Part shown: piece after piece, positions 3,015-20,755 of the stretch | How positions within the stretch are numbered: the stretch's first letter is position 1 | Layout: every line of letters begins with the position of its first letter | Origin: Candidatus Hydrogenedentota bacterium | GTDB lineage: Bacteria; Hydrogenedentota; Hydrogenedentia; Hydrogenedentiales; GCA-2746185 | Direction: 5' to 3' | DNA length: 20,793 nucleotides | Assembly: GCA_012965445.1 (NCBI GenBank) | Contig: DTSJ01000465.1 | Span: 1 to 20,793 of the forward strand | Notes under the pieces: generated by a model | What the model saw: the letters and a program-made list of their open reading frames with translations, nothing else | Told to the model about the DNA's origin: nothing | Database searches by the model: none | Made by a program: the position numbers and the translations under genes

Positions 3015-5567
3015 TTGAAACCATTTTTAGCAAAAAATGTAAAGTTTCGTTTACTCCGATTTCACCGCAATGAGTTGGTGGTACTGTTATTCGGGATATT
3101 CTGTATCACGTCCAACTTTGGTACTGCGCAGGACGCGGCGACCACATCGGAAGCGGTGTCGGGTGTTCCTGAAATGGAAATTGTGCGGACGCCGGTGGTG
3201 CCGCCGCCAGCCCGCGTGTATCCATCGCTTCGGATTGAAGAATCTGGCGAGGCTGGATATTCAGATCTTCGGTCAAAGTATTCGGTTCCCCCTTACAGTT
3301 TGGGTTTTCGGGGTCGTGGCATACATGCGCCTCGATTCGGTAGAGGGCGAGCGAGGAGTCTGGAACGCGCTTTCAGTGATGCGACGGATTACAATTCGAC
3401 GAAGAACAGTCTACTCAATATCAATGTAACGGAGTCGATTGAAAATATCGACACTGCTGATCTGCGGGGCAACATTCGCGATAAGAATAAATTTTCGGCA
3501 CGTGGTGGAATTGAATTCGATCTGGATCGCGGACACTTTAGAGCGAATTCGCTCGATGCGGATCGTGACGCGGGATTGTTGAAAATTGACGGCGACGTGG
3601 AGATTACCAATTCTGAAAGCCGACTGACGGCGGACAGTTTTTTTCTGCAACGATCACCGATGCAGGAAATTACCGAAGAAGATCGGATTCGATATCGGCT
3701 TGTTCCACACGGGCATGATCCATATGAAGTGTCGAAGCTGGGTGACGGTGTTCTTGAGGCTTACAATCTTGATTATATGGAGTTGAAGCGGGCTTTCAAT
3801 GCTGATTATATTCGCTATGATTCTATGAGTCATGCGGGAGTGTTGACGGGTGTCAAGGGGTATTCAGATCCGTTCTATTTTGGAGCGGATCAGGTTCGAA
3901 TTATTGGGCCGTCTACTTTCGACGTGGACAATATATGGCTGACCACGTGCGATCTAGATGATCCGCATTATCGCATCCGGTTTTCACAGGCGCGCGTGGA
4001 GGAAGGCCGCATGGTAGTGGGTAAAGAGACGAAACTTCAGATCGGGAAAAAGAAGCGGACATTCTTCTATATTCCGCAGATATCCGGTTTGAGCATCACG
4101 GGGGAGGATCGTTTGCGACTGGAGATCGAGACAGGTCAGCAATCCGAGCATGGGTATTATCTGAACATTGCGCAATGGTATACGGTAACTCCGAATGTCG
4201 ATCTTGCTTATCGTCTGTATCCGAGTGCCAATGAAGGACTCGGCTTCGGCCTGGACGGAGAGTACGATTTCAGGCAGAATCCAGCGTCTCGTTTATTCGG
4301 CTCTAAAGGCGAATTTGAGACTTTGTACACGACAAAGGAACGTGGGTATACGCAGTGGTATCATCGTCAAGAGCTTTCGCAAGATCTTACGCTGCTTACA
4401 CAATGGGAGCAGTGGTACGACAGGGATTTCGTGAAGGATTTCTACAATGATGAATACGAAGATCGATCTGGTCCGCGTACGTTTACCAACCTGACGTACC
4501 TCAAGGACGGGTACATTGCGACGGGGACGGCTTCGAAATCGACGCATGATTTTGTGAGTGAAACGGAGAAGCTGCCTGAGGCGACGTTTCATCTTCTTGA
4601 GCGGCAACTTGGGGAGGGCTTGTATTTAAGTTTGGACAGCGTGGCGGGCTACTATAATCATAGTGGGACGGATGTGCAGGCGCAACGATATTCTCAGGTC
4701 GCGCGCCTTTCGTACGATTTCAATGTCATGCGTGGAATGAATATTCTCCCCTTTGTCGAAGGCAGTACGACACACTACAGCGAAACACTGACGAGCGATG
4801 ATGCGGAGTCCCGCGTTTCAGGACTTGCAGGTGTGACGACTCAGTTTCGATTCCAACGGGGGTATGCTGGCCGTGGAAAGTTTGACGGGTTCAAGCATAT
4901 TATTGTGCCTTCCGTTACTTATTTTCATGAGAACAGCTCTTCGATAGATGCCGATGATGTACCTCGTTTCGATTCAATTGATATACGTCCTTCACGGGAG
5001 AGAATCGAAAGTAAAATAGATAACCTGATTCTGGGTCGAAATTCGGAGAACGGTCAGGTGTGGCGCGTTTCGAAGTTGACGCTTTACCAAGGAAACGATA
5101 TTTCCAATGAGACTGGCGAAGCGACGGACTACGAAGTGGATATGGAAATTCGGCCGCGTCCGTGGTGGGGAATTAGAACGTTTGCGGAGCAGCACCGGGT
5201 AGACGAGGCTATTGGTGTGAGCGGCCACGACTTTGATCGCGTTCTGAGTTATATTTTCTATGACGACAATAATTTCGAGAACTCGTTTAATGCGCGGCTC
5301 GGCTACGCCTTGACGGATGCAGGTGATATTACTGTGAACCGCGAAATCTTGTACGGCATCGGCTATAAACTGTCGAAGAAATGGTCTTTCTCAGCCGATC
5401 ATACTTACGATCTGGACGATTCCGAGATTCGACGTCAGTCGTATCAGATAAACCGTCGACTACACAAATGGAGTATGGGGCTGCGGATTCGAGATCGTCC
5501 TCGCGGTACGGATGTGAACGTTGTTATGAGTCTAATCGGTTTTTCGGGAACGCGGGTGAGCTTCTAG
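3015..5567 (+). CDS. lptD: LPS-assembly protein LptD (outer-membrane barrel)
   Basis: An 850-aa outer-membrane protein of the LptD/OstA family, the barrel that inserts lipopolysaccharide into the outer leaflet with the lipoprotein LptE. A basic N-terminus and hydrophobic segment (residues 18-36) form a signal peptide with likely cleavage near GTA-QD (39). After a linker rich in Pro and Gly, an OstA-like beta-jellyroll spans roughly 130-300, with family motifs such as FDVDNIWLTTCDLDDPHY (303-319). The rest is a C-terminal barrel rich in aromatic strands, ending in Phe as Bam substrates do. The mature chain has a single Cys (C312), so the inter-domain disulphides of E. coli LptD cannot form. 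The start is TTG: an in-frame TAG lies at 2997, GGGGA precedes the TTG by 5 nt, and later starts would remove the basic part of the signal peptide. No lptE is visible nearby. Confidence 0.9.
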   Translation: MKPFLAKNVKFRLLRFHRNELVVLLFGIFCITSNFGTAQDAATTSEAVSGVPEMEIVRTPVVPPPARVYPSLRIEESGEAGYSDLRSKYSVPPYSLGFRGRGIHAPRFGRGRARSLERAFSDATDYNSTKNSLLNINVTESIENIDTADLRGNIRDKNKFSARGGIEFDLDRGHFRANSLDADRDAGLLKIDGDVEITNSESRLTADSFFLQRSPMQEITEEDRIRYRLVPHGHDPYEVSKLGDGVLEAYNLDYMELKRAFNADYIRYDSMSHAGVLTGVKGYSDPFYFGADQVRIIGPSTFDVDNIWLTTCDLDDPHYRIRFSQARVEEGRMVVGKETKLQIGKKKRTFFYIPQISGLSITGEDRLRLEIETGQQSEHGYYLNIAQWYTVTPNVDLAYRLYPSANEGLGFGLDGEYDFRQNPASRLFGSKGEFETLYTTKERGYTQWYHRQELSQDLTLLTQWEQWYDRDFVKDFYNDEYEDRSGPRTFTNLTYLKDGYIATGTASKSTHDFVSETEKLPEATFHLLERQLGEGLYLSLDSVAGYYNHSGTDVQAQRYSQVARLSYDFNVMRGMNILPFVEGSTTHYSETLTSDDAESRVSGLAGVTTQFRFQRGYAGRGKFDGFKHIIVPSVTYFHENSSSIDADDVPRFDSIDIRPSRERIESKIDNLILGRNSENGQVWRVSKLTLYQGNDISNETGEATDYEVDMEIRPRPWWGIRTFAEQHRVDEAIGVSGHDFDRVLSYIFYDDNNFENSFNARLGYALTDAGDITVNREILYGIGYKLSKKWSFSADHTYDLDDSEIRRQSYQINRRLHKWSMGLRIRDRPRGTDVNVVMSLIGFSGTRVSF

Positions 5568-8971: not shown

Positions 8972-9024
8972 GGGACAGGGTGCCTAGTATGGGGGAGTAG
9001 TGGAATTTCAGTCTGGAAGGCGTG

Positions 9025-9594
9025 ATGCATCTTATCGAGCGCAATGACCATATTGAGCGGATTTTCCTACCGTGGCGGTTTTCACTTGGGAAGGCTTGTG
9101 ATGCTTACAAGGGCCATGTTTATCGCGTGCTGAATTTCGCGTGTGCCGTGCTTGAGGTTGGTGATGCGGACCGCAAGGTCTATGGCGACTATCAGAAAGT
9201 TGAGGATCGCATTGCCATCGCCGCGAGTTTCCATGATGTGGGTATCTGGCTGGACAAGACGATCAACTATCTGGGACCTTCGAAGAAGCATGCGTCGGAA
9301 TGGCTTGACGAGCGAGGTCTCAGGAATTGGGAGTCTGAAGTTGTGTTGATGATTGAGTATCATCACAAACAGACGCGTTATACAGGGGAGCATGAAGTTC
9401 TGGTTGAAGCGTTTCGTCGGGCGGATCTGGTGGATGTCTCGCTGGGTCTCGTGAGATTTGGGATTCCGGGGAGATTCATTCGTGAAGTGAAGCGGGCTTT
9501 CCCGAATTGCGGCTTCCACCGGACGCTGGTGGTCAAACTTACGCCTTATATGCTTACGCATCCGTGGAAACCGCTTCCTATGTTCCGCAAATAG
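9025..9594 (+). CDS. HD-domain phosphohydrolase-like protein
   Basis: A 189-aa single-domain HD-superfamily protein. The metal-binding pattern is complete: H31 (YKGHVYRV), H70-D71 (ASFHDVGIW) and D134 (RRADLVD), with an added HH at 113-114. HD proteins of this size hydrolyse phosphate esters of nucleotides or related small molecules; the substrate cannot be inferred. There is no signal peptide or membrane segment. The first possible start is GTG at 9022, but ATG at 9025, 4 nt after GGAAGG, is better placed. The gene starts about 50 nt after the T-runs of a strong terminator, so its expression may depend on read-through or on a promoter in that short gap. It is followed after 73 nt by the frame-broken anchored protein on the same strand. 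Confidence 0.85.
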   Translation: MHLIERNDHIERIFLPWRFSLGKACDAYKGHVYRVLNFACAVLEVGDADRKVYGDYQKVEDRIAIAASFHDVGIWLDKTINYLGPSKKHASEWLDERGLRNWESEVVLMIEYHHKQTRYTGEHEVLVEAFRRADLVDVSLGLVRFGIPGRFIREVKRAFPNCGFHRTLVVKLTPYMLTHPWKPLPMFRK

Positions 9595-14496: not shown

Positions 14497-16677
14497 TTAC
14501 GTGGAGACCGCCGACCTGAGCCGCTCTGCGAGGCGTGTGTTTCGGCGGGTGACGTCGGTGTTGTTGAGGGCGCGGCGGAGGGCCTTTTTTTCGCCTACGA
14601 CGACAACGAGGGATTTTCCGCGGGTGATGGCGGTGTAGAGGATGTTGCGCTGGAGCATGAGGTAGTGCTGGCTGACGATGGGGAGGATGAGGGCGGGATA
14701 TTCGCTGCCCTGCGATTTGTGGACGGTGATGGCGTAGGCGAGCTGCAGGTTGTCTATGTCGTCGAAGTTGTAGAGCGCGGTTCTGTCTTCGAATTCGACG
14801 TGGAGTTCCTTGACCTCCTCCGAGACCAATGTGATGATTCCGACGTCGCCGTTGTAGACATCCAGCTCGTAGTTGTTTTTGGTCTGGATGACTCTGTCGC
14901 CGAGTCTGAGTCCTCTTCGAGGAATTTCCTGGCCGTTCGGGTTCATCGCCTGCTGGAGTTGTTGGTTGAGATGGGCGACTCCTGCATCTCCGCGGTGCAT
15001 GGGTGCGAGTACCTGGATATCTTTCATGGGGTCGAAGCCGAATTTTTTGGGGATTCGGTTGGTCACGAGTTCGAGGATCGTGTCGCGGACAGCTTCTGGG
15101 TCGTTTCGCTCGACGAAGAAACAATCCGTGTCGTTCCATTTCGGGGGATCGCCGACATTTATTCGATGGGCGTTCGAGATGATTCCGCTTTCAGCGGCCT
15201 GTCGGAAGACTGTTTTGAGACGTACGGTGGGAACGGCGTTTGACGCGATGATGTCCATCAGCACGTTTCCAGGGCCGACGGAGGGGAGCTGATCGACATC
15301 GCCTACGAGGAGGAGTCGCGCGTCGTCCGGTATTGCTTTCAGTACGCTGTGCATCAGCGACACGTCGACCATGGACATTTCGTCGATGACAATTACGTCG
15401 GCGTCGAGAGGATTCATTTCGTTTCGCGAGAAGTCGTGGAGCTTGGGATTGTATTCGAGGAGGCGGTGAATGGTTTTCGCGGCGTGTCCGGTAGTTGTTT
15501 CCATTCGCTTGGCTGCTCGTCCGGTTGGTGCAGCGAGCAGGAGGGTGAAATTTTTGCGTTGAAAGACTGAGATGATGCTGTTGATGAGGGTCGTCTTGCC
15601 TGTTCCCGGGCCGCCGGTAATGACCATGACGGGCGCGTCGACGCTCATGCTCAGGGCATCGCGCTGTTCATCGGAGAGTGTGATGGAATGTTTTTTCTCG
15701 ACCCATTTTATTGCTATGTCTACTTTGTCCGTTACGGTTTCCTTTTCAGCCGAGAGTAATCTGCGGAGATGATCGGCGCATCCGGTTTCGCGGTCGTGGA
15801 GGTCTTGCAGAAAAATATCGTCGCCTTCGCCAACGAGAGTGTCGTTGTGAATCATGGTGGTGAGTTCATGTGCGATTAGATCTTGGTCTGTTTCGAGGAG
15901 GGCGCGGGCCTTTGAGAGGAGGTTATCCCGCTCCGAAAACACGTGGCCTTCTGAGACCATCTGCTGGAGCGTGAAGGTTAGGCCAGCGGCGATACGGGTC
16001 TGGGAGTCCTTTGCTAGGCCGAGGTTTACCGCGATTTTGTCGGCACCTGAGAACCCGATGCCTGTGATGTCTTCGATGAGTTTGTATGGGTTGTCGCGGA
16101 GTACTGAGACTGCACCGTCGCCGTACTTTTTGTATATTTTGACGGCCTGGTTGGTTCCGATGCCGTGTCCCTGGAGGAATACCATGATGGACTGGATGTT
16201 TTTTTGCTCCGACCATGCTTCGCGAATCTGGCTTGCCCGTTTGGGACCGATGCCTTCGACGGTTCTAAGGCGTTCGGGCTGTTCGTCGATTACCTTGAGT
16301 GTTTCGATGCCGAATGCCTTAATCATGCGCTCTGCGTAGGCGGGGCCGATTCCGTGAATCAATCCTGAGCCGAGATATTTTTCGATTCCGATGATGGAGT
16401 TGGGCAGGATGGTCTTGTAGCCGGTTACTTTGATTTGTTTTCCGAATTTTCGATCATCTACCCATTCGCCTTCGATTTGAATGGTTTCGCCGGGACTTAC
16501 GGCCATCATGGAGCCTACGAAAGTGAGTTGATCGTGACGACCTTCGACGCGCATGCGCGCGACCACGAAACCGTTGTCGGGATTTTCGTAGACGATGCGT
16601 TCGACGATACCTTCGGCGGAGGCGCGGTCTGAGTGCGGCAGGAGATTGTTTTCTTTTGGTCTTTGGCTATCCTGCAT
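14497..16677 (-). CDS. recD2: RecD2-type ATP-dependent DNA helicase
   Basis: A 726-aa superfamily 1B 5'-3' DNA helicase of the RecD2 type, which works without RecBC in DNA repair. Domain order: N-terminal OB-like region (about 20-90), helix-hairpin-helix repeats (about 100-220; VEGIGPKRASQ, ITGIGFSGADK), then the helicase core. Walker A is GGPGTGKTT (355-363), Walker B VIVIDEMSMVD (428-438), followed by GDVDQLPSVG (459-468), VFRQ with R492, AITVHKSQGSEY (649-660) and TAITRGKS (682-689). The length matches the RecD2 family. The start ATG overlaps the last 11 nt of the YihY gene, implying translational coupling; no ribosome-binding site of its own is evident. It is the last gene of the operon with the L,D-transpeptidase and YihY genes. 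Confidence 0.95.
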   Translation of the reverse strand: MQDSQRPKENNLLPHSDRASAEGIVERIVYENPDNGFVVARMRVEGRHDQLTFVGSMMAVSPGETIQIEGEWVDDRKFGKQIKVTGYKTILPNSIIGIEKYLGSGLIHGIGPAYAERMIKAFGIETLKVIDEQPERLRTVEGIGPKRASQIREAWSEQKNIQSIMVFLQGHGIGTNQAVKIYKKYGDGAVSVLRDNPYKLIEDITGIGFSGADKIAVNLGLAKDSQTRIAAGLTFTLQQMVSEGHVFSERDNLLSKARALLETDQDLIAHELTTMIHNDTLVGEGDDIFLQDLHDRETGCADHLRRLLSAEKETVTDKVDIAIKWVEKKHSITLSDEQRDALSMSVDAPVMVITGGPGTGKTTLINSIISVFQRKNFTLLLAAPTGRAAKRMETTTGHAAKTIHRLLEYNPKLHDFSRNEMNPLDADVIVIDEMSMVDVSLMHSVLKAIPDDARLLLVGDVDQLPSVGPGNVLMDIIASNAVPTVRLKTVFRQAAESGIISNAHRINVGDPPKWNDTDCFFVERNDPEAVRDTILELVTNRIPKKFGFDPMKDIQVLAPMHRGDAGVAHLNQQLQQAMNPNGQEIPRRGLRLGDRVIQTKNNYELDVYNGDVGIITLVSEEVKELHVEFEDRTALYNFDDIDNLQLAYAITVHKSQGSEYPALILPIVSQHYLMLQRNILYTAITRGKSLVVVVGEKKALRRALNNTDVTRRNTRLAERLRSAVST

Positions 16678-18337
16678 CGGCAGCTTCGGGGGCTTTCGGA
16701 AAAACGTGGACGCGGTGGATTAACTCCTCGATTGTGGTGGCGTGGATTCCTTCGGAGGGGTAGAGGTATTCGTCGAACACGGAGCGATAAGCATCGTCAT
16801 GGAGGAATCGGGAGGGGTCTTCGCCGCGTTCATGGAGGGAGCGCAGTATGTCGCCTGCGGTTATCTGGTCGAGGGGACGCGCGGGCTGGTAGCTGACTTG
16901 TTCTGTGGCGCATTCTGTGATGAACCCGGAGTCTTCGAGCTGCTCGAGGGTTTCGATGATCAGACGACTTGGGACGTTCCATTCGAGTGCGGCGGCTTCG
17001 ACTTGCAGCGTTGGGAGGCTTTTTTGAAACCTTCTGCCCATGTCGATCATTGCGCGCAGTCCGAGGGCAGCGCGATATGCGAAGCTGGCGTTATCGGCGA
17101 ATCGTTCCATGGTGAACGTTTTTTCGTTTTGATAGGCGTAGGTGACTTCGGAACCGAAGAGGAGTATTGCCCAGCTCAGGTAGACCCACATGAGGAGCAT
17201 TGGGAACTGGGCGAATACTGAGAGTACGGCCTGATATTTCGCGAGACCTATCTGGAAATTGATGTATGACCATGAAAGGGAGACCCACAGAATTCCGGCG
17301 ATGAGGCCGCCGAATACGGCGTAGCCGAAGCGCACACGGGTATTGGGTACGATGAAGTAGAGGGCGGTAAAGAGCAGCACGACTACGGAGAACTGGAAGG
17401 TCTGGAGCAGGACCGCCATTGGCCCGAGTGCTTCTCTGATACGTTCGCTTTGGAGTGCGGCTGAGATGCCGAGAACGGCTGCTGTGATGAACGGGATTGC
17501 GAGGGTAATGACGAGGTAATCGCTCATCATTCGATACCAGGACCGTTTGCGGCGCACACCCCAGATACTGTTGAACGAGACTTCGATATTTTTCATCAGG
17601 CCGAAGACGGTTGTCACGACGAGGAGCACGGTTGAAATTCCGAATGCGGCCTTGTTTTTTGCGGCCTCGTCTGCCAGAGAGGCGAGTGAGTTTGAAAGGT
17701 CGACAAGCCACTGCACGGGGTTTTCCATGTCTTCGTCCTGTTGACCTACTCCCTGGAACATTGACTGTACCAATTGGTTTTGCAGTTCTCTATTGGATTC
17801 GTTGCGGTCGGCAGCGGCGATGTCTGCGTTTTCAATGGATTCATCGGTTACGATCACTTCCGCGTCGTCATCGGGGGACGGTTCTTCGGACAGAGGCTCG
17901 TCTGTGATTTCGGCATTGGTGACCGTGAGGGCATCATTGTCCGGCAGCGCTGCTTCTTCGGGCAGGTCTACCGTCTCTGAATCTTCTGACTGGTTGAGCC
18001 CAGGAACCTTTTCGGCGGAAACGACGATGAAGTCCTCGAGTTTTTCCTGCAGATTGGTGTAGAGGCCGCCGCCGAGGTTAAAGGTTTGAATTATGTAGAA
18101 GGTCACGGCGAGGAATGGCACGATTGAGAGGAGGGTTGCGAAGGTCAAAGCGGATGCGCGGAGCATGAGATTGCCATCGAGGAGCTTGGTGAGCAGGAGG
18201 ATTACTACGCGAATTTGTTTGATGAAAAAGCCGCTGGGAATTTCTTCGCCAGGTTTTCCTATGTCCCAGATGTCCATCGTGACGAAGTATCTGCCACGTT
18301 CGATGGCTTCGCGTATGCGTGTGATGGTTTTTCCCAT
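16667..18337 (-). CDS. YihY/virulence factor BrkB family membrane protein with acidic insert
   Basis: A 556-aa inner-membrane protein of the YihY/BrkB family (function not firmly established; once called RNase BN in error). The family core is visible: TM1 (about 62-86), then TM2-TM6 between 230 and 402, with FNSIWGVRRKRSW (255-267), YFIVPNTRVRF (327-337) and the closing GSEVTYAYQ (395-403). Two features are unusual. Residues about 113-200 form an acidic, probably disordered insert (many Asp/Glu, Ser, Pro) between TM1 and TM2, most likely on the periplasmic side. A C-terminal extension of about 150 aa (405-556) resembles a winged-helix domain (LPTLQVEAAALEWNVPSRLIIETLEQLEDSGFI). It starts 29 nt after the L,D-transpeptidase gene and overlaps recD2 by 11 nt. 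Confidence 0.9.
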   Translation of the reverse strand: MGKTITRIREAIERGRYFVTMDIWDIGKPGEEIPSGFFIKQIRVVILLLTKLLDGNLMLRASALTFATLLSIVPFLAVTFYIIQTFNLGGGLYTNLQEKLEDFIVVSAEKVPGLNQSEDSETVDLPEEAALPDNDALTVTNAEITDEPLSEEPSPDDDAEVIVTDESIENADIAAADRNESNRELQNQLVQSMFQGVGQQDEDMENPVQWLVDLSNSLASLADEAAKNKAAFGISTVLLVVTTVFGLMKNIEVSFNSIWGVRRKRSWYRMMSDYLVITLAIPFITAAVLGISAALQSERIREALGPMAVLLQTFQFSVVVLLFTALYFIVPNTRVRFGYAVFGGLIAGILWVSLSWSYINFQIGLAKYQAVLSVFAQFPMLLMWVYLSWAILLFGSEVTYAYQNEKTFTMERFADNASFAYRAALGLRAMIDMGRRFQKSLPTLQVEAAALEWNVPSRLIIETLEQLEDSGFITECATEQVSYQPARPLDQITAGDILRSLHERGEDPSRFLHDDAYRSVFDEYLYPSEGIHATTIEELIHRVHVFPKAPEAADAG

Positions 18338-18366: not shown

Positions 18367-19863
18367 CTACAACTTCGGTGACATGCTGCCGGAGCGAACA
18401 ACGATTGGCGTGCCTAGGGGAACCATGTTGTACAAGCGTCGTGCGTCCTGCGGCCTCATGCGGATGCAGCCTTTGCTGAGTGCCTGGCCGATGGATTGGG
18501 ACTTGTTCGTGGGGTGCATGCCGTAGGTGAGGGGAGTATTTCCGTCGCTCAGGCCGAGCCATCTGTCGCCTAGAGGATTGTTGGGCACACCTGCGGGGAC
18601 GACGTCACCGCTGTTATACCAATCCGGTTCGCGGATTTTGGCACCTATGGTGAAAATGCCGTCGGGTGTGCTGCCTTTGGCGCCGAGGCCTACTGGGAAC
18701 TGCCAGATGGTAGCTGCGTTTTTTACTACGTGCAAGACGAATGTGTCTTTGTCGACATATACGACGATTGGAGCGTCAATGGGCAGGCTTGTCAGGGAAG
18801 AATCTAGCGTAACCCAGTTGTCCAGCTTGGGGAGAACGGGGATTTCATTGGGGTGGATGATTAGCCGTCCGCGAAAGTTGCGAAGAACTTCGCGCCAGAG
18901 TTCGGGCAGGTCGTTGACAGAATCTGCGGCGTTTCGGGTCCGGTAGAGAGCTGCCAACCGATTTCCCGCCAGCATGGAGGTTTGTGCGTTTTCGAGATCA
19001 CGGGCAAGTTTTTCGACTGGGGAGGGGTTACCTGAATTGCCCGCGGGAAGTGCGTTTAAAATCCTAGGTACATCTTGGCTGCCTGGATCATGGACGATCG
19101 GTCGAAGGGTGCCAAGCGATGCAGACAGAAAGGAATCTTGTGGTTTTTGGAAGTATGGGGGGACAGCTTGCAATTTTTTCGTGTCGATAGACGTGTCCAG
19201 ATGATTGTAGGTAAATGTACCGGAAGCGTAATCATGGGATGCTGGCGCTTTTTCGGACGCACCGCTGGCACTTTGGGCGTAGGATATGCCCCTAAGTGAA
19301 TCTGCGTTTTTGGCTTGTGATTGCCTGGAGCCGAGTAATAGCAGGAAAAAGATAATCAAGAAGAGTATGACTAGTAAGACTGGTTTCCAGATCGGGGAAC
19401 TCTTTCGACCCGCGTTCGGCTTCGAGCGTTTCTGTTTTGGTATTGCGTTCGATTGCTGGACCGATTTTACGGGTATCGGTTTGAACCGAATACCTTTGAG
19501 GGCGACTTTTGGCAGATAGTGAGCCGTCTTTTTCGTCTCAATCCGGGTTTGCTTTGGGTTGTAGAGCGTTTTGATCCCGAGGACGTATCCGTGGGCGCCG
19601 AATTTCTCGACGTAGCGTATTTCTCCTTTGGAGAGGAGAGTTTCTTCCTGGCCGTTTTCATCCGTTGGCGGGAATTCGATGTCGATACGTGTGCCGACGG
19701 TTTGGGGTGTATCGGTCCGAATGCTCATCGCACCGAAACTTTTAGTCAGCAGTGAACCCCCGCACAGCGACGCCGAACCCGCGGTGTCGCAGAAACACAC
19801 GGGTTGATTCGAGGGGATACGTGTCCCGATGCGTCTTTCCGATTGTTCAGTTTGGGGGATCAT
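18367..19863 (-). CDS. PilZ-TM-YkuD fusion: membrane-anchored L,D-transpeptidase with cytosolic PilZ-like domain
   Basis: A 498-aa protein. Residues 8-105 are PilZ-like: R11xxxR15, then TKSFGAMSI (40-48) at the place of the D/N-x-S-x-x-G c-di-GMP motif, with Ser kept but the acidic residue and Gly replaced, and a closing YVLGIKTLY. Next come a basic linker, one membrane segment (161-178), a long periplasmic linker with helical stretches, and a C-terminal YkuD L,D-transpeptidase domain (365-492) with H450 and SKGCIRM, nucleophile C466 and R468. YkuD enzymes form 3-3 peptidoglycan cross-links or attach proteins to peptidoglycan. The topology puts PilZ in the cytosol and the enzyme in the periplasm, suggesting nucleotide-controlled cross-linking (inference). 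ATG at 19863 has AGGA 5 nt upstream. It is first in the operon with YihY and RecD2. Confidence 0.85.
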   Translation of the reverse strand: MIPQTEQSERRIGTRIPSNQPVCFCDTAGSASLCGGSLLTKSFGAMSIRTDTPQTVGTRIDIEFPPTDENGQEETLLSKGEIRYVEKFGAHGYVLGIKTLYNPKQTRIETKKTAHYLPKVALKGIRFKPIPVKSVQQSNAIPKQKRSKPNAGRKSSPIWKPVLLVILFLIIFFLLLLGSRQSQAKNADSLRGISYAQSASGASEKAPASHDYASGTFTYNHLDTSIDTKKLQAVPPYFQKPQDSFLSASLGTLRPIVHDPGSQDVPRILNALPAGNSGNPSPVEKLARDLENAQTSMLAGNRLAALYRTRNAADSVNDLPELWREVLRNFRGRLIIHPNEIPVLPKLDNWVTLDSSLTSLPIDAPIVVYVDKDTFVLHVVKNAATIWQFPVGLGAKGSTPDGIFTIGAKIREPDWYNSGDVVPAGVPNNPLGDRWLGLSDGNTPLTYGMHPTNKSQSIGQALSKGCIRMRPQDARRLYNMVPLGTPIVVRSGSMSPKL

Positions 19864-19990: not shown

Positions 19991-20755
19991 ATGCTGAAGC
20001 GTATTGCAGTTGCTGGAAGCGATGAGAAAGCGCGGAAGGCTTTGAGCAAGGGAGTGAAGAAGCTCGATATTCAGCTTGTGGACGTTGAACCGTCCGACTC
20101 ACTGCCCGATATGACTGACGCGTTGCTTCACGTTGGCTCTGCTCAGGATGCGCTTCATTTGGCGGTGCAGCAGGCGGATCGTTCTGAAGAGCTGCTGCAT
20201 TTGCTTGCGGAGGCGATCGATTGCCGCGAGTCGTTCAAGCCGAAGAGTTCGCAGCGGGTCGTGGATCATGCTACGAGGTTTGTAAAGGCGCTGGGGCTGG
20301 ATGATGAGCAACGCATTTTGCTGGAACGGGGTGCGCTTCTGCGAGATATTGGGAAATTGAAGATTCCGAACGACGTTCTGCTCAAGGACGGTCTGTTGAC
20401 ATACGACGAATGGACGCTTGTACAGCAGCACACGAATATCGGTGCCGATCTGGTTCGTGACCTACCGGGGATGGAGGGGATTGAGGAGATTGTTCGGTGC
20501 CATCATGAGTGTTTTGATGGAGATGGATATCCCGACAAACTTGAGGGTGAAGCGATTCCGTATCTGGCGCAGATGCTGAAGATTATTGATGTGTATTGCG
20601 CTATGACAAGTCCTCGAGCGTATCGGTCTGGTACATCTTCGCAGGACGATGCGCTGGCATACTTGAAAAACGAGCGCGGCAAGCATTTCGATCCTGAGCT
20701 GGTTGACGTATTTCTTGAGAAGAAAATTGGCACTGTTGTGAAGGACAGCGAGTAA
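19991..20755 (+). CDS. Degenerate HD-GYP domain protein
   Basis: A 254-aa protein. Residues 1-80 resemble no domain I can name (a short receiver-like start, then helices). Residues 83-245 are a clear HD-GYP domain, normally a c-di-GMP phosphodiesterase: RDIGKLKIPNDVLLK, QQHTNIG (H147), HHECFDGDGYP (171-181) and IIDVYCAMTS (D200). Two metal-binding histidines of the family are missing: the H of the HSxRV motif is S86 and the H of the HD pair is R118 (codon CGA at 20342-20344). D119, H147, H171 and H172 remain. It is therefore probably inactive or altered and may act as a binding or sensing protein. AGGAG lies 7 nt before the ATG. The gene is divergent from the PilZ-YkuD gene, 127 nt apart. Confidence 0.85.
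   Translation: MLKRIAVAGSDEKARKALSKGVKKLDIQLVDVEPSDSLPDMTDALLHVGSAQDALHLAVQQADRSEELLHLLAEAIDCRESFKPKSSQRVVDHATRFVKALGLDDEQRILLERGALLRDIGKLKIPNDVLLKDGLLTYDEWTLVQQHTNIGADLVRDLPGMEGIEEIVRCHHECFDGDGYPDKLEGEAIPYLAQMLKIIDVYCAMTSPRAYRSGTSSQDDALAYLKNERGKHFDPELVDVFLEKKIGTVVKDSE

Follow-up and report, generated by a model that had tools for sequence, protein, structure and literature searches.

A PilZ domain fused to a YkuD L,D-transpeptidase in Hydrogenedentota: a candidate c-di-GMP receptor joined to a predicted periplasmic cell-wall enzyme

Results

A PilZ-YkuD fusion encoded by one ORF

Members of the phylum Hydrogenedentota encode a protein family in which a PilZ domain, a transmembrane segment and a YkuD domain are joined in one polypeptide. 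We consider it fairly probable that these are inner-membrane L,D-transpeptidases equipped with their own cytoplasmic c-di-GMP receptor, working inside-out in the manner of Alg44, and that the copy examined here is a variant of the family. This copy (P0001) lies in a 20,793-nucleotide stretch of DNA, referred to below as the window. An earlier reading made from the DNA letters and translated ORFs (the sequence-only reading) had proposed a PilZ domain, one transmembrane segment, a linker and a YkuD domain in one protein, and these parts are indeed found in a single ORF of 498 amino acids. The main features of the locus are as follows:

18367..19863, minus strand: PilZ-transmembrane-YkuD fusion gene, 498 aa, single ORF
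19549..19851, minus strand: PilZ domain, residues 5-105, predicted to face the cytoplasm (family profile, model, fold search)
19819..19833, minus strand: intact RxxxR motif, R11-R15 (motif reading; R11 and R15 invariant in alignments A3 and A4)
19729..19746, minus strand: altered second PilZ motif TKSFGA, residues 40-45 ([DN]xSxxG in 33/38 members)
19312..19389, minus strand: one transmembrane helix, residues 159-184 (model and hydrophobicity)
19021..19311, minus strand: low-confidence, probably disordered linker, residues 185-281 (pLDDT <50 for 180-278)
18856..19020, minus strand: helical segment preceding YkuD, residues 282-336, TPR-like in some relatives (model, domain scan)
18397..18765, minus strand: YkuD L,D-transpeptidase domain, residues 367-489 (PF03734)
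18460..18477, minus strand: catalytic SKGCIR with C466 and R468; the H450 codon is 18514-18516
19991..20755, plus strand: HD-GYP-type protein, 254 aa, divergent neighbour (PF13487, E 1.2e-33; R for the H of the HD dyad, LLRDIGK)
16667..18337, minus strand: YihY/BrkB-family membrane protein, downstream, same strand as the fusion gene
14497..16677, minus strand: RecD2-type helicase, further downstream

The YkuD domain

The YkuD domain of the window protein matches PF03734 with 78.6 bits against a cut-off of 23.4, and its catalytic residues H450, C466 and R468 are intact, as the sequence-only reading had stated. Across the 41 family rows reaching these positions, H450 is kept in 41, C466 in 40 and R468 in 41, so that the catalytic residues are kept more strictly than the c-di-GMP motifs of the same family. 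In the one exception (L049, 6001-7509), whose PilZ motif is intact, the catalytic Cys is replaced by Tyr (SQGYVR); this may reflect an inactive enzyme or an error in sequencing. The closest PDB entry by sequence is 6v45_A, which was deposited under an oxidoreductase name.

Enzymes of the YkuD fold include L,D-carboxypeptidases and lipoprotein-attaching enzymes, and the periplasmic domain might have one of these activities under the same control. The ElsL carboxypeptidase was among the NCBIfam matches, far under its cut-off (18.5 versus 270 bits), but better scores were obtained for LdtE (48.9 bits, itself far under the cut-off of 480) and for B. subtilis YkuD, both named transpeptidases, although these names do not indicate the acceptor. 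We therefore regard a carboxypeptidase or lipoprotein-attaching enzyme as quite improbable.

The N-terminal PilZ domain

The PilZ profile PF07238 was absent from the Pfam scan of the window protein up to E 10, with the curated Pfam score not reached, and its cut-off was passed by five of nine fusion members scanned singly. Against a profile of its relatives the window N-terminus scored 62.9 bits, and none of 200 shuffled controls matched. A fold search with the whole-protein model, which was run first, gave a list dominated by YkuD with one PilZ entry (rank 50), and since YkuD filled this list the N-terminus was modelled separately. The predicted model of the N-terminus has the six-stranded PilZ beta-barrel and resembles solved PilZ structures, and the best 30 rows of the fold search with this part alone were all PilZ-bearing chains. 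The PilZ domain of BcsA headed the Foldseek matches and was also the closest PDB hit by sequence for the N-terminal profile (E 0.007); the Alg44 PilZ structures 4rt0 and 4rt1 were also among the fold matches. The barrel on which the earlier proposal hinged was thus found in both the model and the fold search. Among 34 aligned fusion members (alignment A4, which excludes L060, L065, L066, L063 and fragments), 30 had a PilZ match and 34 a YkuD match.

Distribution of the fusion

Profile searching and ORF analysis of 68 Hydrogenedentota genomes showed that 28 of them encode the fusion in a single ORF, a count that includes three members with a degenerate PilZ N-terminus (L060, L065 and L066). In two further genomes (G030 and G050) the PilZ and YkuD halves lie on two contigs, and in G001 and G046 the YkuD half alone is present, at a contig edge. 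Three protein searches covering 5.8 billion sequences, each scoring about 8000 candidates that shared words with the query, retrieved nine full-length members; one of these, P0002, is identical to the window protein at all but 2 of 498 residues, and P0003-P0010 are further one-ORF relatives. The other matches in these searches covered 19-28% of the query and had no PF07238 listed, in an annotation column that also misses the PilZ domain of P0002-P0006.

A contig search with the window protein alone as query retrieved no relative, and one with alignment A1 retrieved four, all from Hydrogenedentota. Plasmid (664) and phage (3) records gave partial matches only, no record aligning with 80% of the query at a single site, and those listed fall in query residues 290-495. 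As far as tested in 68 genomes of the phylum and in the protein searches, the fusion therefore appears confined to Hydrogenedentota, where it is conserved; the sequence-only reading had made its proposal depend on such conservation. Within the family, identity to the window copy falls to 22%. The named relatives are metagenome-assembled, the one point found in favour of an assembly or annotation artefact. We rejected this explanation, whose probability is negligible, because the fusion recurs in many separate copies: 28 genome assemblies and each of P0003-P0010 have it in a single ORF.

An edge-cut ORF in genome G057 (L073:1-1422) has a PilZ region scoring 91.4 bits against the family profile, the motif ELSREG and a later hydrophobic segment. 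It is possibly a truncated fusion member and stands outside the family count.

c-di-GMP motifs across the family

Among 38 members with an N-terminus (a set that excludes P0002 and the five partial or cut rows L001, L059, L069, L072 and L073), RxxxR is present in 35, [DN]xSxxG in 33 and both motifs in 33. Five members depart from this pattern: the window copy (TKSFGA), L047 (ERSVGG), and L060, L065 and L066, in which both motifs are gone. These last three form one clade (branch support 100/100) with an intact YkuD domain, and their degenerate N-termini score 14.8, 24.4 and 23.4 bits against the family profile, as compared to 3.6 for the best of 300 shuffled controls. Resolution near the base of the tree is poor, with 20 of 34 inner branches starred, which limits inference on the number of motif losses. 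In alignment A3, which omits the three motif-less members, R11, R15 and S42 are invariant in all 27 rows.

In the window copy RxxxR is kept and the second motif is altered, as the sequence-only reading had noted: two of the three key letters are changed (T40 and A45 for N and G), while R11, R15 and S42 remain. The relatives P0003 and P0004, which are 62% and 61% identical to it, both carry NRSSGG, and P0004 is its sister in the tree (support 100/93), so that the change appears to be recent in the window lineage. We accordingly file the family as c-di-GMP receptor-like by its motifs, and the window copy, with RxxxR present and [D/N]xSxxG absent, only as PilZ-fold. Alg44 variants altered at R17, R21 or residue 44 lose binding according to PMC12564702; the residue at position 44 is named Asp in that text and Glu in PMC8461298.

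Because its second motif is altered, binding of c-di-GMP by the window copy is doubtful, and the copy has probably lost or changed its ligand binding. It retains the fold, RxxxR and the catalytic residues, but the two changed letters of motif 2 make a variant particular to its lineage the most likely reading, one that binds c-di-GMP weakly, differently or not at all and is constitutive or answers to another cue. A rival proposal, that the window copy is a receptor re-purposed through an altered pocket for another ligand such as a different cyclic dinucleotide, fits the replacement of two letters next to retained R11, R15 and S42 and the recent date of the change. There is, however, no sign of which ligand this would be, and the change was seen only in P0001 and the nearly identical P0002, so that we hold this possibility to be rather unlikely.

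The persistence of the fusion without canonical motifs, in the window copy, in L047 and in the L060/L065/L066 clade, counts against reading the family as c-di-GMP receptors. It agrees with an alternative in which PilZ serves for structure or targeting by contact with a partner protein, while nucleotide binding is ancestral and dispensable and the enzyme constitutive; PilZ domains working through protein contact without a nucleotide do exist. A pure scaffold, however, would not need the two motifs that are kept together in 33/38 members despite the divergence of the family, nor the invariance of the two arginines and S42 in A3, and we judge this alternative unlikely.

Membrane topology and linker

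The window protein contains one hydrophobic stretch (residues 154-184) after the PilZ domain, with five K/R in the 15 residues before its peak and three after. A hydrophobic segment follows the PilZ region in 38/38 members with an N-terminus, with one extra marginal segment each in P0006 and L061. K/R residues are richer before the peak than after in 32 of the 38, and no such excess is seen in P0005, P0006, P0008, L004, L063 and L067. The N-in, C-out orientation is likely, because of this excess in most members and of the predicted model. The model contains a helix at residues 159-184 and, ahead of YkuD, further helices within 282-336; its confidence is low from 180 to 278. So long a low-confidence linker would transmit poorly as a rigid lever, which is a point against the receptor reading, and would favour placement or clustering of the enzyme.

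Genes next to the fusion

Examination of the fusion loci revealed a recurrent set of neighbours. Where at least 1 kb of downstream sequence is available (29 loci), a YihY/BrkB gene follows on the same strand in 18 cases, a point in favour of a PilZ domain that binds a partner protein. Where it reaches 4.5 kb (22 loci), RecD2 is encoded downstream on that strand in 7. On the other side, of the 24 loci with 3 kb of upstream sequence, 10 carry a divergent gene for an MshEN protein (by similarity), as compared to about 0.24 loci expected from genome-wide density in the same genomes in either orientation; as these neighbours are shared by descent, the figure describes a conserved context and not 24 independent trials. 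Pfam scanning of eight of the ten MshEN loci plus L003 yielded a PF05157 match for all ten proteins. MshEN is described in PMC5013675 as a c-di-GMP receptor domain; in the neighbours its two motifs are recognisable, with the arginine of RLG replaced in some. A divergent HD-GYP-type gene occurs at 3/24 loci, similarly shared by descent, and likewise in the window, and neither type of gene at 11/24. The 13/24 loci with an MshEN or HD-GYP neighbour, like the two motifs kept in 33/38 members, lend indirect support to control of the family by c-di-GMP. GGDEF, PilZ and MshEN domains each occur in 68/68 genomes.

The upstream proteins of L002, L003, L004, L045, L054, L055, L057, L061 and L064 have one C-terminal MshEN and no secretion-ATPase match. 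Several upstream MshEN proteins show weak coiled-coil-type matches in their N-terminal part.

The HD dyad is broken in three of the four HD-GYP neighbours. We rejected a paired decay of the PilZ motif and the HD-GYP neighbour, since L052 pairs RDIGK with an unbroken PilZ motif (DMSAGG), and R at this dyad position is frequent among the HD-GYP proteins (20/31). In that family (window 19991-20755 and L077-L106) the position of the dyad His holds R in 20 of 31 proteins, H in 8 and another residue in 3, with HH and GYP kept in all 31. The R-type proteins are probably pseudo-phosphodiesterases or have an altered metal site, as judged from these residues. HD-GYP matches at E 1e-30 were found in 51/68 genomes, some of them to more distant HD-GYP proteins.

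Several other window proteins have features of their own. The YihY/BrkB protein (16667-18337) contains a long acidic insert at about residues 110-215, as seen by eye, and a Rrf2-like C-terminal match under cut-off. The ORF at 329-2755 codes for an 809-aa protein with C-terminal ankyrin repeats and no other Pfam match above cut-off, that at 3015-5567 for 850 aa without any such match, and that at 9022-9594 for 190 aa with an HD-domain match just under cut-off (18.7 versus 22 bits). No polysaccharide synthase was found among the 16 window proteins scanned.

A second L,D-transpeptidase of the phylum often precedes a GGDEF gene

The commonest other YkuD protein in the 68 genomes has the architecture TPR-LysM-YkuD (7/7 scanned), with a hydrophobic stretch near its N-terminus as judged by eye. 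The places where its gene lies do not involve the window gene. Counting one place per genome and leaving out G012 and G030 (partial matches), 42 of 57 places have a GGDEF gene on the same strand in the 3 kb that follow: at least 38 by comparison with the GGDEF matches listed, and four from reading the remaining 19. At the other 15 places no such gene was found in the available sequence, which at L120, L124 and L125 extends less than 1 kb downstream.

At eight loci (L107, L108, L109, L111, L112, L113, L115 and L129) similarity points to the order MoxR ATPase, Ser/Thr kinase, L,D-transpeptidase, GGDEF, and at L108:1213-6750 all four products (MoxR, Ser/Thr protein kinase, TPR-LysM-YkuD and GAF-GGDEF) were confirmed by Pfam. 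Of eight such cyclases examined, five carry GGEEF with a preceding RxxD and three carry GGEEL or GGEEI. The conserved order is represented by L107-L115, L118 and L128-L130, with all four genes seen at the eight loci above. This second link raises the likelihood that c-di-GMP and L,D-transpeptidases are connected in the phylum.

Discussion

In the standard form of the family, by analogy with Alg44 and LapD, c-di-GMP would bind the PilZ domain through RxxxR and [DN]xSxxG and thereby change the packing of the PilZ domains. This change may be passed through the single helix and the helical segment, so that YkuD is switched, placed or assembled in the periplasm, and the messenger level would then set L,D cross-linking without transcription. 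We give about an even chance to the broader proposal of a single-protein, phylum-specific switch by which c-di-GMP sets L,D cross-linking, wired twice, once in the PilZ fusion and once in the MoxR-kinase-YkuD-cyclase order.

Each part of this architecture is known, and the combination is new. To our knowledge, the usual members of the YkuD/ErfK family carry either a signal peptide or a short anchor and lack a sensor in the cytoplasm, whereas the fusion carries a cytoplasmic PilZ domain. In BcsA the PilZ domain sits in a cellulose synthase and is unattached to a periplasmic enzyme. LapD is a GGDEF-EAL type receptor with a separate periplasmic enzyme; the Pfam scan of the window protein found neither a GGDEF nor an EAL domain, which sets it apart from the LapD type. 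Alg44, as described in PMC8461298, is composed of PilZ, one membrane helix and a periplasmic domain, and the window protein likewise has, by prediction, an N-terminal PilZ domain, one helix and a periplasmic C-terminus. The output differs, being a membrane-fusion (HlyD-like) domain in Alg44, an alginate co-polymerase, and a YkuD cell-wall enzyme domain here. In the LapD-LapG system an enzyme of the periplasm is controlled by messenger binding on the cytoplasmic side (PMC3032545); the inside-out principle is shared, but LapD is a separate membrane protein binding a separate protease, while the fusion would hold receptor and enzyme in one chain. In the RgsP-RgsM system of Rhizobiales, a membrane protein bearing c-di-GMP domains is linked to a peptidoglycan enzyme of the periplasm and to wall growth (PMC6107284). 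There, however, two proteins are involved, the enzyme is a metallopeptidase, and RgsP degrades c-di-GMP via an EAL domain. No recognisable description of a PilZ-YkuD fusion was found among the open-licence PMC papers listed in literature searches; within that scope the sequence-only reading, which knew of no characterised system with this architecture, stands.

Known targets of c-di-GMP control are polysaccharides, pili, flagella and adhesins. By word search, neither "peptidoglycan" nor "transpeptidase" occurs in the main text of the c-di-GMP receptor reviews PMC12564702 and PMC10519070. With a receptor fused to an L,D-transpeptidase, a link from messenger to wall becomes testable in one purified protein, for which the motif-intact, motif-2-altered and motif-less members offer a natural control series. 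If true, the proposed role would show how a cytoplasmic messenger reaches an enzyme outside the cytoplasm.
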